Under the pieces are notes generated by a model. That model had not been told where the DNA came from and did not search any database. It saw only the letters and a list, made by a program, of their open reading frames with translations. A stretch of 64,000 nt of DNA from Halogeometricum sp. S1BR25-6 (GTDB taxonomy: Archaea; Halobacteriota; Halobacteria; Halobacteriales; Haloferacaceae). The position numbers were made by a program, and so were the translations under genes. Positions 33,643 through 37,825 of this stretch are shown piece after piece. The stretch lies in assembly GCF_031624495.1 (NCBI RefSeq), contig NZ_JAMQOP010000002.1:558001-622000 (forward strand). Direction: 5' to 3'. Each line of letters starts with the position of its first letter. Within the stretch, counting starts at the first letter, position 1.

Positions 33643-33702
33643 ATGAGGTTTCCGAACTCACGGACCGCCTTCCAGCAGAGAATCTATAGTACCCAGATAT
33701 GA
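33643..33702 (+). CDS. Short leaderless ORF (19 codons) coupled to HPr-kinase-like gene
   Basis: ATG at 33643 (MRFPNSRTAFQQRIYSTQI) sits 25 nt after the AATATA box and ends in a TGA overlapping the next ATG as ATGA. The promoter spacing makes this one of the better-supported examples of the leader ORFs. Confidence 0.4.
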   Translation: MRFPNSRTAFQQRIYSTQI

Positions 33703-34835
33703 GTAAACATTACTACGAGTTCTTCGACGGTCTGTTGGTCGAGGTAAGCGGCTCCGGCGGACGGACGGACGACCAGTTCAGGAAGATGTACGGCCACTTC
33801 CGGGTGTCGTCGCCGACGCGCGAACCCGACATGGTCATCGAGGAGACGACGAAGGACGTCGACCCCGACGTCGTCCTCGGCGACCCGAGCGACTACTACG
33901 GGTGGACGGGCGAGCAGTTCGTGGTGCGCAACGGCTCCTCGTTCATGGCGGTCACGCCCGGGTGGGACCACATCCAGGTCACGCCGGGATTCGAGCCCTT
34001 CTACGCCATCTACCCGATGGAGTTCGAGATACGCAAGCGGATGGTCGAGCAAGGCAGGGCGCTCGTGCACGCCTCCGGAATTCAATTAGACGGGGAGACG
34101 ACGCTGTTCCCTGCGTGGCGCGGGGCCGGCAAGACGAACACGCTGCTCTCACTGCTCCGCGAGGGCGCGAACTTCCTCTCGGACGACCGACTCTGGGTCG
34201 GCGCGGACGGGGAAGCGTTCGGCTACCCGCTGGGTGTGAACCTCCAGCCCTACAACATCGAGTCGTTCTCCGAGGTGGAACTCACGCACGACTCGCTGAA
34301 GGACCGACTCCGCCACGAGGTCCATGAGTACGTCGACGACCGGTTCGGCGGCGCGAGCCAACTGCCGGCGACGGCGCTGCTCTACTTGAACGGAAAGTTC
34401 CTCTCGGACGACGGCCGCGACTTCACCGACGTCGGCTCGCTGTACTCCACGGCGGAGTACGTCGAGCAGGCTTCGGTCGACAACATCGTGTTCCTGCAGG
34501 CGGCGCCCAACAACGACCACATCACCAGCGAACCGCTCTCGACGGAGGAGGCGATGAAGGGAATCAGCTCCATCTGCAACTTCGAGTGGGACGGCCGGCT
34601 CAGAGAGTACTTCCACGCCTACGATTCCCTGGTCGACGACGGCGACATGGTCGAATCACTGGACGAGGTCGTCCGACGCGAGCGCGAGGTGTTCGAGGAA
34701 CTGTTCGAAGATGTCGGAACGTACCGCGCTCGAATCCCGCGGGAGCGCGACTGGACCGAGCACGGACTCGACGACGAAGTCGTCGAGATGGTCGAGTCGC
34801 TCGAACCCCGGAGAGCCGTCGAGGCGTCCGACTAG
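33699..34835 (+). CDS. P-loop protein resembling HPr kinase C-terminal domain
   Basis: 378 residues, soluble. A P-loop FPAWRGAGKTNTLLSLLREG (A-x4-GKT, about 139-146) follows GRALVHASGIQLDGETTLF, the strand-loop arrangement of HPr kinase/PckA-like domains, and NFLSDDRLWVGADGEAFGYP supplies the downstream acidic residues. The N-terminal 120 residues and acidic C terminus are not recognised. HprK-like proteins without HPr occur with asparagine-synthase-like genes in peptide and surface-polymer clusters, where they may phosphorylate a small molecule or peptide; the asparagine-synthase-like gene here is 14 kb away. Function is not assigned. Confidence 0.68.
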   Translation: MSKHYYEFFDGLLVEVSGSGGRTDDQFRKMYGHFRVSSPTREPDMVIEETTKDVDPDVVLGDPSDYYGWTGEQFVVRNGSSFMAVTPGWDHIQVTPGFEPFYAIYPMEFEIRKRMVEQGRALVHASGIQLDGETTLFPAWRGAGKTNTLLSLLREGANFLSDDRLWVGADGEAFGYPLGVNLQPYNIESFSEVELTHDSLKDRLRHEVHEYVDDRFGGASQLPATALLYLNGKFLSDDGRDFTDVGSLYSTAEYVEQASVDNIVFLQAAPNNDHITSEPLSTEEAMKGISSICNFEWDGRLREYFHAYDSLVDDGDMVESLDEVVRREREVFEELFEDVGTYRARIPRERDWTEHGLDDEVVEMVESLEPRRAVEASD

Positions 34836-35094
34836 CCGACGGAACCCGAGAACCGAACGCTGGTCCGGGACGGTATCCGGGGACGGCGTTCGGCGTGACC
34901 GGCCGACACGCACGTATCGGAGATCCGGATTCTAAACGATAGAATATGTCAGTTAGGGAGACGTATTTTTCTCGGGTTCGGTCGGGCCGACGGATGGGAC
35001 ACCGATTAACCCAAAGCGCCGATTCGGCGCCGTTTACTTAACTCATATATAACTATCCATCAACGAAGAGTTACATCCGAAGTAAGAACCGCCC
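34836..35094. other. AT-rich intergenic region before phosphoesterase unit
   Basis: Contains ATATATAAC (35045-35053) and surrounding AT-rich sequence, likely promoter elements of the phosphoesterase-cohesin operon. No gene seen. Confidence 0.45.
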
Positions 35095-35238
35095 ATGAGT
35101 CGAGTATCAACGAGTCCCTACAGTGGTTACGGCGCGCGGACGAATCCGCGGGAGCGGTCCCGCGCGGCGTGTCGACACATCGGAACACAGATGGCGACCC
35201 GCCGGGGAGAGCCGCGACGACATCGCGTGGTAACATGA
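35095..35238 (+). CDS. Short upstream ORF (47 codons) coupled to phosphoesterase gene
   Basis: ATG at 35095 (MSRVSTSPYSGYGARTNPRE...) runs to a TGA overlapping the phosphoesterase ATG as ATGA. Eleven Arg and almost no acidic residues, unlike a haloarchaeal protein. The best TATA-like box is about 45 nt upstream, so it would have a short leader. Confidence 0.33.
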   Translation: MSRVSTSPYSGYGARTNPRERSRAACRHIGTQMATRRGEPRRHRVVT

Positions 35239-36440
35239 CGGCCGACCCCGAGGCGACGGGGTGGTCGGGTCCGACGAGACGAACCGTTTTGCGGGCGTTG
35301 GGTACGGGTGCGACGCTGGCGGGGATCGGCGCGACGGCCGGGGCCGCTCAGAGTTCGGAGCCGTGGACGGTCGTCGCCCTCCCGGACACCCAATACTACG
35401 CCGAAGACGGGACGTCGTATCCGCGGGACCAAGCCGAGTGGGTCGTCGACAACGTCGGCGGAGAGAACATCGTCCACGTCAGCCACCTTGGCGACGTGGT
35501 CGAGAACGGCGACGACGAGGCGGAGTGGGAACACATGGCGGAGGCGCTCGCACCCCTCGACGGCGCCGTCTCCTTCTCGACGCTTCCCGGCAACCACGAC
35601 TGGGCGTCGCTGGGAGACCGCACCTCGTCCATCGAGAACTACCGACAGTACTTCGGGGCGTCCCAGAACGCGGGACCGGACGACCTCAACAGCTACCAAC
35701 TGTTCTCCGCGGGCGGGTACGACTTCCTCCACCTCGCCTTGGAGTGGGAGATACCGGGAGACATCGACGACTCCTCGACCGCGTTGGGGTGGGCGCAGAG
35801 CATCCTCGAGCAGTACCCCGACCGACCGACCATCATCAGCACGCACTCGTACCTCCGGGACTCCCCGCAGCGTCGGACCCTGCAGGTACAGGAAGAGAAC
35901 GGCATCGGAACCGAGGGTCAAACGGTCTGGGAGGAACTCATCGCGCCGAACTCGCAGGTGTTCATGGTGCTGTGCGGCCACTGGCACAGAGACGACGGCG
36001 AAGCCGACCAAGTCTCCTCGAACGACGACGGCGAGGACGTGTACGAACTGCTGTCGAACTTCCAGGACCGCGACAACGGCGGGTACGGACTGCTCCGGCA
36101 GATTCGGTTCCAACCCGGCGGCGGGAGCGGAGACGACCCCGACCGCATTCAAATCCAGACGTACTCGCCGAGCGAGGACGAATACCTCGAAGACGGGGAC
36201 AGCGAGTTCGGCTTCGACCTCGACTTCGACGCCCGCTTCGGGTCCGCTTCGGACGGACCGCTCGCGGGCGACGCCGACGGCGACGGCGACGTGGACGGTG
36301 ACGACGTCGAGGCAATCCAGCGTTCGATCGCCGGCGAGGACGTCGACATCGACTCGGAGGCCGCGGACGTCGACGACGACGGCGATATAGACATCGGCGA
36401 TGCGATTCGCACGCGGAACATCAGCGAGGAAGGACAATGA
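35235..36440 (+). CDS. Tat-exported calcineurin-like phosphoesterase with C-terminal dockerin
   Basis: 401 residues. TRRTVLRALGTGATLAGIGA is a Tat signal with likely cleavage after AGAA (about 38). The metallophosphoesterase motifs follow in order: LPDTQYY, SHLGDVVENG, LPGNHDW, STHSY and LCGHWHRD, so the two-metal site is complete. The C terminus (about 345-395) has two calcium-binding repeats, DADGDGDVDGDDVEAI and DVDDDGDIDIGDAI, the signature of a type I dockerin. The next gene, overlapping by 4 nt, encodes a cohesin. The enzyme is therefore probably docked at the cell surface, acting on phosphoester or phosphodiester substrates outside. Confidence 0.87.
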   Translation: MTADPEATGWSGPTRRTVLRALGTGATLAGIGATAGAAQSSEPWTVVALPDTQYYAEDGTSYPRDQAEWVVDNVGGENIVHVSHLGDVVENGDDEAEWEHMAEALAPLDGAVSFSTLPGNHDWASLGDRTSSIENYRQYFGASQNAGPDDLNSYQLFSAGGYDFLHLALEWEIPGDIDDSSTALGWAQSILEQYPDRPTIISTHSYLRDSPQRRTLQVQEENGIGTEGQTVWEELIAPNSQVFMVLCGHWHRDDGEADQVSSNDDGEDVYELLSNFQDRDNGGYGLLRQIRFQPGGGSGDDPDRIQIQTYSPSEDEYLEDGDSEFGFDLDFDARFGSASDGPLAGDADGDGDVDGDDVEAIQRSIAGEDVDIDSEAADVDDDGDIDIGDAIRTRNISEEGQ

Positions 36441-37825
36441 ACGGCGCGAACAGGGTTCTGGCGCTCGGATGCGTGCTCGTACTACTCGTCGGCCTTCCGG
36501 CCGGCGCGGCCTCGGTCGGGGCGCAGACCGCCTCCGCGATCAGCGTCGGCGAGGAGGTCACGACGTCGCCGGACGGTACCCTCACCGCGGAACCGGGTGA
36601 GACCGTCACGGTGAGCGTCTGGGCGGACGCCACGGACGTGAGCGGCTATCAGACGACGCTCACCTACGACCCCGACGTCGTCCAAGTGACGGACGTCTCG
36701 GGGAGCGACGACTTCGGCGACCCGGTCGCAAACGTCGACAACGAAGGAGGCAGCGTCGCGTTCAACCAGATTCGCGGGTCGAACACCGACGGTCCCGTGC
36801 TGGCCGAGATAACGCTCGAAGTAACCGGCGAGGCCGGCGAGAGCGCGGCGCTCTCGTTCGACGAGTCCGAGACGAAGTTCGCGTCCGCCGACGGCGAGAC
36901 GTTCGTCCCGGAGACGTTCAACGACGTGACCGTGAGCGTCGAGGCGGCCGAGACCGAGACGCCGACTGCGACCGAGACTGAAACGGAAACGGAGACAGAG
37001 ACAGAAACCGCGACCGAGACGGAGACGGCCACCGAAACCGCGACAGAGACGGCAACGGAAACTGAGACCGAGTCAGAGACGGCTACGGAGACCGAGACGG
37101 CAACGGAAACTGAGACGGAAAACGAGACGGAGACTGAAATCGAGACGGAGACTGAAACGGCTACAGAGACCGAGACCGAAACGGAAACAGAAACTGAAAC
37201 TGAGACCCCGATTCCGGCCGAAGAGGACGACGACAGCAGTAGCAGCGACGACGACGATGACGACGACAGTAGCAGCAGCAGTAGCGGCGGAGGAGGCGGC
37301 TACTCGGCGGACGAACCGGAGTTTTCCGTCGAGTCGGTCGAACTCAACGCGACGAACGGGAGCGTCGGGGACGCGGTGCTCGTCTCGGCGCTCGTCGAGA
37401 ACTCCGGCGACGCCGACGGCGAGTTCGACGCGCGACTGTACGTCGACGGTAACGAGACGGAGTACAGCCGAGCCGTCGAGATAGACGAGGGGGAGAGCCG
37501 CAGGGTGAACTTCTCTATCACCTTCGACACCCCCGGCACGTACGCGCTCGGCGTCAACTCCATCGCCGCCGGCACCGTGACCGTCGCGGCGAACGAGACG
37601 ACGGCGACTGCGACGGCCACCGCGACGCCGGAGTCGACGGCCACGCCGACGGCGGCGTCCGCGACGGAGACGGAGGAGACGGCGGCGCCCGCGACGGAGG
37701 TCAGCACGGAATCCGGCTCCGGCGGCACGGAGACGAGCGGCTCCACGCCCGGATTCGGGTTCGTCGTCTCGATCGCGGCGATGAGCCTACTGGTCTGTTG
37801 GCTCACGCTGCGACGCGAAGTGTAG
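36437..37825 (+). CDS. Cohesin-CARDB surface protein with PGF-CTERM anchor (scaffold)
   Basis: 462 residues. A Sec signal peptide (LALGCVLVLLVGLPAGAASV) is followed by a cohesin-like domain (about 33-167; GETVTVSVWADATDVSGYQT, LTYDPDVVQVTDVSG, GSVAFNQIRGSN), a long Thr-Glu repeat, an Asp/Ser/Gly stretch, a CARDB-type domain (about 288-385; DAVLVSALVENSGDADGEFD), a Thr/Ala linker, and STPGFGFVVSIAAMSLLVCW plus a basic end, the PGF-CTERM signal processed by archaeosortase A. It should be lipid-anchored through an S-layer-spanning stalk and hold dockerin-bearing partners such as the product of the overlapping upstream gene. Confidence 0.85.
   Translation: MNGANRVLALGCVLVLLVGLPAGAASVGAQTASAISVGEEVTTSPDGTLTAEPGETVTVSVWADATDVSGYQTTLTYDPDVVQVTDVSGSDDFGDPVANVDNEGGSVAFNQIRGSNTDGPVLAEITLEVTGEAGESAALSFDESETKFASADGETFVPETFNDVTVSVEAAETETPTATETETETETETETATETETATETATETATETETESETATETETATETETENETETEIETETETATETETETETETETETPIPAEEDDDSSSSDDDDDDDSSSSSSGGGGGYSADEPEFSVESVELNATNGSVGDAVLVSALVENSGDADGEFDARLYVDGNETEYSRAVEIDEGESRRVNFSITFDTPGTYALGVNSIAAGTVTVAANETTATATATATPESTATPTAASATETEETAAPATEVSTESGSGGTETSGSTPGFGFVVSIAAMSLLVCWLTLRREV
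36955..37210 (+). repeat. Thr-Glu-coding tandem repeat
   Basis: About 250 bp of GAGAC/GAAAC-type repeats encoding alternating Thr-Glu, the stalk of the cohesin protein. Copy number may vary between strains. Confidence 0.75.

Follow-up and report, generated by a model that had tools for sequence, protein, structure and literature searches.

Two overlapping genes on the forward strand of Halogeometricum sp. S1BR25-6 encode a phosphoesterase that ends in a dockerin (gene 1, positions 35,235 to 36,440 of the window, i.e., of the whole stretch of 64,000 nucleotides that was analyzed) and a cohesin protein with a candidate surface anchor (gene 2, positions 36,437 to 37,825). With a probability of about three in four, we regard them as a dedicated one-to-one tether, extracellular and calcium dependent, that would keep the phosphoesterase at the cell surface; its binding, its anchoring, and the substrate of the enzyme are points that we infer. 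The two-gene finding itself is confirmed and is stronger than first stated. Since the same two-gene order recurs at 22 loci and a second copy is present on another contig of this genome (C3), the pair is not a product of chance.

Relatives were sought with the catalytic domain of gene 1 only (alignment A1), the dockerin being left out to avoid bias. A cohesin gene was located immediately downstream and on the same strand at 22 of the 22 haloarchaeal loci of the enzyme with a dockerin, in answer to the initial concern that the two might never be linked in homologues, whereas no cohesin was present near any of the eight dockerin-less homologues within the stretch examined. The naive probability of such a split is about 2e-7, a value that serves as a guide only because the loci are not independent. 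Three genomes harbor both forms of the enzyme, with and without the dockerin. The overlap of the genes is exactly 4 bases in 17 of 20 measured pairs, the window included (ATGA at 36,437 to 36,440, in which the stop codon of gene 1 overlaps the start codon of gene 2), and the remaining gaps are 0, 2, and 6. Among the named hosts are Halogeometricum pallidum, four Haloarcula species (H. sebkhae, H. argentinensis, H. japonica, and H. salina), Halorubrum, Halogranum rubrum, Halogranum amylolyticum, and Halobellus. Within 292 genomes of the class, cohesins were detected in 117 and dockerins in 137, and both were found in 72 (55 expected). A mirror-tree analysis revealed a weak co-divergence of dockerin and cohesin beyond that of the catalytic domain (partial r of 0.20; permutation p of 0.02).

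The product of gene 1 comprises 401 amino acids, and its start agrees with that of the H. pallidum orthologue; a possible TATA box of the two-gene operon (ATATATAA, 35,045 to 35,052) was read by eye. The sequence-only reading had recognized a complete calcineurin-type phosphoesterase with a Tat signal, and both elements were recovered. The putative Tat signal peptide (35,235 to 35,340) contains the motif TRRTVLR, whose RR is kept in homologues, and matches the TAT_signal_seq profile weakly (E = 0.28). The catalytic domain (35,361 to 36,239) scores 38.1 bits with PF00149 (cut-off, 21.5; E = 2.9e-9) and possesses the full set of metallophosphoesterase motifs (PDTQ, GD, GNHD, TTHSYL, and GHWH), the core residues of which are invariant or nearly so across 14 homologues; the first motif reads D-x-Q, not D-x-H. 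An AlphaFold model of the window protein has a mean pLDDT of 84.3, with the catalytic domain mostly above 85, and Foldseek assigned it to the metallophosphoesterase superfamily, with Lmo2642, GpdQ, and purple acid phosphatases as the best matches. This fold comparison indicates the general superfamily and no substrate, and searching the PDB by profile with this domain yielded no match.

The C terminus of gene 1 is a type I dockerin (36,267 to 36,422) with two calcium loops (36,270 to 36,305 and 36,366 to 36,401), in agreement with the two dockerin-type repeats that had been noticed there. With the Dockerin_1 profile (PF00404; cut-off, 22.9 bits), the last 60 residues alone reach 24.5 bits, a scan of the genome gave 23.6 bits, and the whole protein remains below the cut-off at 19.8 bits. 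Both loops are complete, with Asp at positions 1, 3, 5, 9, and 12, and the ligands at these positions (Asp/Asn) are conserved in 18 homologous sequences. The recognition positions 10 and 11 are occupied by G-D in loop 1 and by I-G in loop 2; judged by known type I dockerins, such unlike residues argue against a symmetric dual binding mode.

Gene 2 encodes 462 amino acids with a putative Sec signal, a cohesin, a stalk, a CARDB domain, and a PGF-CTERM-like tail. Its cohesin domain (residues 33 to 170; 36,533 to 36,946) scores 40.1 bits with PF00963 when isolated (E = 5.3e-10; cut-off, 24.1) and goes undetected when the whole protein is scanned against Pfam, probably because of the biased composition of the Thr/Glu repeat stalk (36,947 to 37,210). 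The CARDB domain lies at 37,316 to 37,558 (PF07705; E = 6.5e-8), and the putative archaeosortase sorting tail at 37,733 to 37,822 reaches 23.6 bits with TIGR04126, slightly under the cut-off of 24.5. The tail of the H. pallidum orthologue exceeds that cut-off (27.2 bits), and several homologues of gene 2 give no match; the same genome encodes archaeosortase A (TIGR04125; 348.9 bits). The DNA of the H. pallidum orthologue retains the stalk, a CARDB-like region, and the anchor, with one ambiguous base in the repeat region. Hence, of the architecture initially described, the signal peptide, cohesin, Thr-Glu stalk, and CARDB domain stand, and the PGF-CTERM anchor is more cautiously termed PGF-CTERM-like. 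The designation as a scaffold had to be given up: gene 2 contains a single cohesin, and its product is therefore a monovalent anchor, neither a scaffoldin nor a cellulosome.

Gene 1 and gene 2 of Halobellus inordinatus (L048) are located in one frame, with one TGA and two codons between them. This stop was read through for modeling, which resulted in a chain of dockerin, signal peptide, and cohesin that joins the products of two genes and thus places the partners artificially within one molecule. The AlphaFold model has a mean pLDDT of 86.9 and a pTM of 0.78; residues 62 to 78 form a disordered link between two well-folded domains, and the pLDDT of the cohesin is above 95 over most of the domain. 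In a Foldseek comparison with the PDB, almost all matches were cohesins; cohesins or cohesin-like modules filled ranks 1 to 49, among them the archaeal structure 2xdh, and the matches included OlpC and OlpA complexes. The cohesin fold, on which the original proposal depended, is thus a confident prediction of a nine-stranded jelly roll for the pair, made with the Halobellus homologue rather than with the window protein. By a hand estimate (136 of 225 residues in the cohesin; d0 of 5.6 Å), an unplaced dockerin would limit the pTM to about 0.62, and the higher value of 0.78 argues for a confident placement of dockerin and cohesin relative to each other. Docking of the two is therefore a prediction, for which the model is an indication and not a proof.

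Under the preferred reading of a one-to-one tether, the phosphoesterase would be exported via Tat and the cohesin protein via Sec, and the latter would then be fixed to the surface on its stalk by the archaeosortase-type C terminus. Docking would have to occur outside the cell, because the sequences of the two genes indicate different export signals, of the Tat type in gene 1 and of the Sec type in gene 2. In the calcium-containing brine, the dockerin would plug into the cohesin, the enzyme would be retained at the tip of the stalk, and its most likely action would be to remove or cut phosphate esters in polysaccharide at the surface or outside the cell. An extracellular phosphoesterase docked onto an anchored stalk, as envisaged by the sequence-only reading, is supported by the linkage rule and the predicted folds, with the binding as a prediction from the single-chain model and from that rule.

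A search for further dockerin proteins in this genome, as proposed at the outset, returned a second phosphoesterase, a PKD protein, and an FG-GAP-like protein, so that profile searches count four dockerins and two cohesins in total. Both cohesins directly adjoin dockerin phosphoesterases, i.e., in the window and on contig C3. The cohesin gene of the C3 pair (L007, 9,427 to 9,948) has its stop directly after the cohesin domain and has lost the stalk and CARDB domain, and a remnant of the anchor or sorting tail is readable behind two in-frame TAG codons. This loss, like the tail score of the window protein slightly under its cut-off, counts against the tether. The existence of the PKD protein (C4) and the FG-GAP-like protein (C5) would be compatible with a cohesin that serves as a hub for other dockerins, as an anchor that holds several proteins in an open multi-enzyme system. 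We consider such an arrangement unlikely, since one cohesin per anchor accommodates one partner at once and since the C4 and C5 dockerins differ in sequence: when the profile of the pair's own dockerin was run against L008 and L009, both remained unmatched. Independently of this question, the C-terminal part of the PKD protein (L008, 9,628 to 11,592) resembles a divergent cohesin and is directly followed by the dockerin in one chain.

The same two dockerin proteins, beside neither of which a linked cohesin gene was found, might also be cited for a different role of the domain, namely, as a calcium-stabilized cap or a substrate-binding module that does not bind the cohesin, the two genes being simply co-regulated surface genes. 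Haloarchaeal dockerins have been treated as substrate-binding in the literature (PMC10963439, PMC13260240), and 65 of the 137 genomes with dockerins were without any detected cohesin. Nevertheless, the restriction of the dockerin to enzymes with an adjacent cohesin (22/22 versus 0/8) and the confident cohesin fold would both be unexpected for an unrelated function and make this explanation decidedly improbable. A linkage due solely to the vertical descent of an ancient gene pair whose products do not interact physically is very improbable. It is true that most loci belong to related families of one order and that the three domains diverge in strong correlation. However, the kinase-like gene described below has changed its position relative to the pair three or more times, with the dockerin and cohesin genes remaining adjacent in the same order; the dockerin-less homologues are also without a cohesin; and a second family, of cohesin-dockerin proteins (often with a subtilase) followed by a small anchored cohesin, shows the arrangement again.

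The tether that we favor is accompanied by a third gene (33,699 to 34,835) for an HprK-related P-loop kinase-like protein of 378 amino acids, which is assigned to the module by its HprK_rel_B matches, motifs, and adjacency and in which no signal peptide was seen. The NCBIfam model HprK_rel_B (TIGR04355) matches 16 of 16 homologues over the P-loop region (best E value, 2.7e-8), in every case far below the equivalog cut-off of 200 bits. With a score of 30.1 bits over residues 114 to 184 and an alignment of the core only, membership in HprK-related kinase B was rejected; no Pfam family covers the gene. Its family shows the invariant motifs FPAWRxxGKTNTL and DDRLWV and has the P-loop and the paired-Asp motif region in common with HprK-related kinases A and B and FomB. 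The kinase-like gene adjoins the pair at 19 of the 22 dockerin loci in four arrangements. It is located upstream in Haloarcula, Halogeometricum, and others and downstream in G081, in both cases with the orientation of the pair; in Halogranum it is divergent, and in Halorubrum 48-1-W and Halobellus captivus it lies downstream and is convergent. It is missing at the two second copies, is reduced to a fragment in Halorubrum rubrum (G171), and also adjoins one dockerin-less enzyme. With 14 of the 15 dockerin-enzyme genomes and only three others among all 292, it is almost confined to genomes with the dockerin-cohesin pair (Fisher p of about 4e-20, a guide only given the relatedness of the genomes). 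The context suggests that this cytoplasmic HprK-like kinase probably acts in the same pathway as the pair. It may, as a guess from the linkage, make a phosphorylated product handled by the enzyme, e.g., a molecule that would be processed later by the phosphoesterase.

Genes for polysaccharide metabolism (GT2, heparinase II/III, GT1/4, and flippase) occupy 26.4 to 32.7 kb of the window. The proposed position beside a polysaccharide region thus applies here and in some lineages (Halogeometricum, Halogranum, and Halorubrum). In Haloarcula, the trio of kinase, enzyme, and cohesin is instead surrounded by unrelated genes without a polysaccharide cluster, which weakens this part of the carbohydrate context. 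A dockerin-less phosphoesterase homologue (L145, 5,253 to 8,117) has an N-terminal stretch that appears GH16-like by eye. Together with the CBM96 domains of several homologues, it points to a carbohydrate substrate, and with the polysaccharide clusters included, carbohydrate is the likeliest context for the enzyme. The C3 copy has sugar ABC-transporter-like genes in its vicinity, in view of which glycerophosphodiester uptake was considered. This idea was rejected: the transporter ATPase family was present at three loci only, and the main copies have no ABC-transporter-like neighbor that would speak for uptake as a general function. In another dockerin-less homologue, the dockerin is replaced by an INWWATG-type domain of about 62 residues (L141, 7,690 to 7,884), which gave no significant Pfam match. 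The domain is also present in very large proteins of haloarchaea (L008, 11,667 to 18,518) and was detected in 8 of 116 genomes. We tentatively propose, at somewhat less than even odds, that the three genes constitute an undescribed module, in which kinase and surface phosphoesterase would act at opposite ends of a single pathway for a phospho-glycan or another surface phosphoester, the latter held by a private archaeosortase-fixed dockerin-cohesin tether.

The pair resembles the bacterial cellulosome (Clostridium thermocellum, Acetivibrio) in the cohesin fold, the two-loop type I dockerin, the conserved calcium-loop ligands, and the distribution of dockerin on the enzyme and cohesin on the anchored protein. 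It differs in having one cohesin per anchor without a scaffoldin or a cellulose-binding module on the anchor, a phosphoesterase instead of a glycoside hydrolase, and a PGF-CTERM-like instead of an SLH or LPXTG anchor. No multi-cohesin scaffoldin was found in this genome, whose two cohesins are encoded one per gene, and no dockerin-bearing plant-wall glycoside hydrolase was among its four dockerin proteins. Single-cohesin anchoring proteins of the OlpC/ScaE type in cellulosomal bacteria are surface-fixed and monovalent and hold one dockerin protein, which is how the present pair would work, but their anchors and enzymes are different, and we know of no case in which such a cohesin and its partner form a two-gene operon. 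The non-cellulosomal cohesin of Archaeoglobus fulgidus (PDB 2xdh) is archaeal and matches the modeled fold but stems from a different lineage.

The existence of cohesins and dockerins in archaea has been on record since 1999. Binding of archaeal cohesin-dockerin pairs has been reported in work cited by PMC9012536, and the function and pairings of these domains have been left open in the literature (PMC9012536, PMC5244752). The ANME repertoires presented there likewise comprise archaeal dockerin and cohesin proteins with proposed surface roles, but they consist of many proteins of unknown pairing and include multi-cohesin scaffold-like proteins, whereas linkage here pairs one enzyme with one anchor. 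A description of the present operon was not found in the literature searched; an earlier mention of haloarchaeal pairs in the survey of Peer et al. 2009 is possible. With respect to higher valency, two genomes of one genus (G043 and G208) contain 13 to 14 cohesins and 7 to 14 dockerins, many of which lie close together in a single region where individual open frames encode several cohesins, and these clusters are possibly a true archaeal scaffoldin system.

The operon studied here names a partner for the dockerin and identifies the enzyme and the likely anchor route, and the hosts of the module (Haloarcula, Halorubrum, Halogeometricum, Halogranum, and Halobellus) are culturable, so that the role of an archaeal cohesin-dockerin system becomes directly testable. 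The pair also questions the present annotation of haloarchaeal dockerins as substrate-binding domains and adds a kinase-like gene whose presence tracks it almost perfectly. At least 10 other haloarchaeal loci (including L053, L057, L058, L045, L055, L052, and L054) show a second arrangement, in which the gene for a protein with both cohesin and dockerin (two of three scanned cases also have a subtilase domain) precedes a smaller gene for a cohesin with a hydrophobic C-terminal anchor. The combination of an enzyme and an anchored cohesin may thus be a general display device of haloarchaea; if true, the subtilase family would make the pair of dockerin enzyme and anchored cohesin a general means of enzyme display in these organisms.
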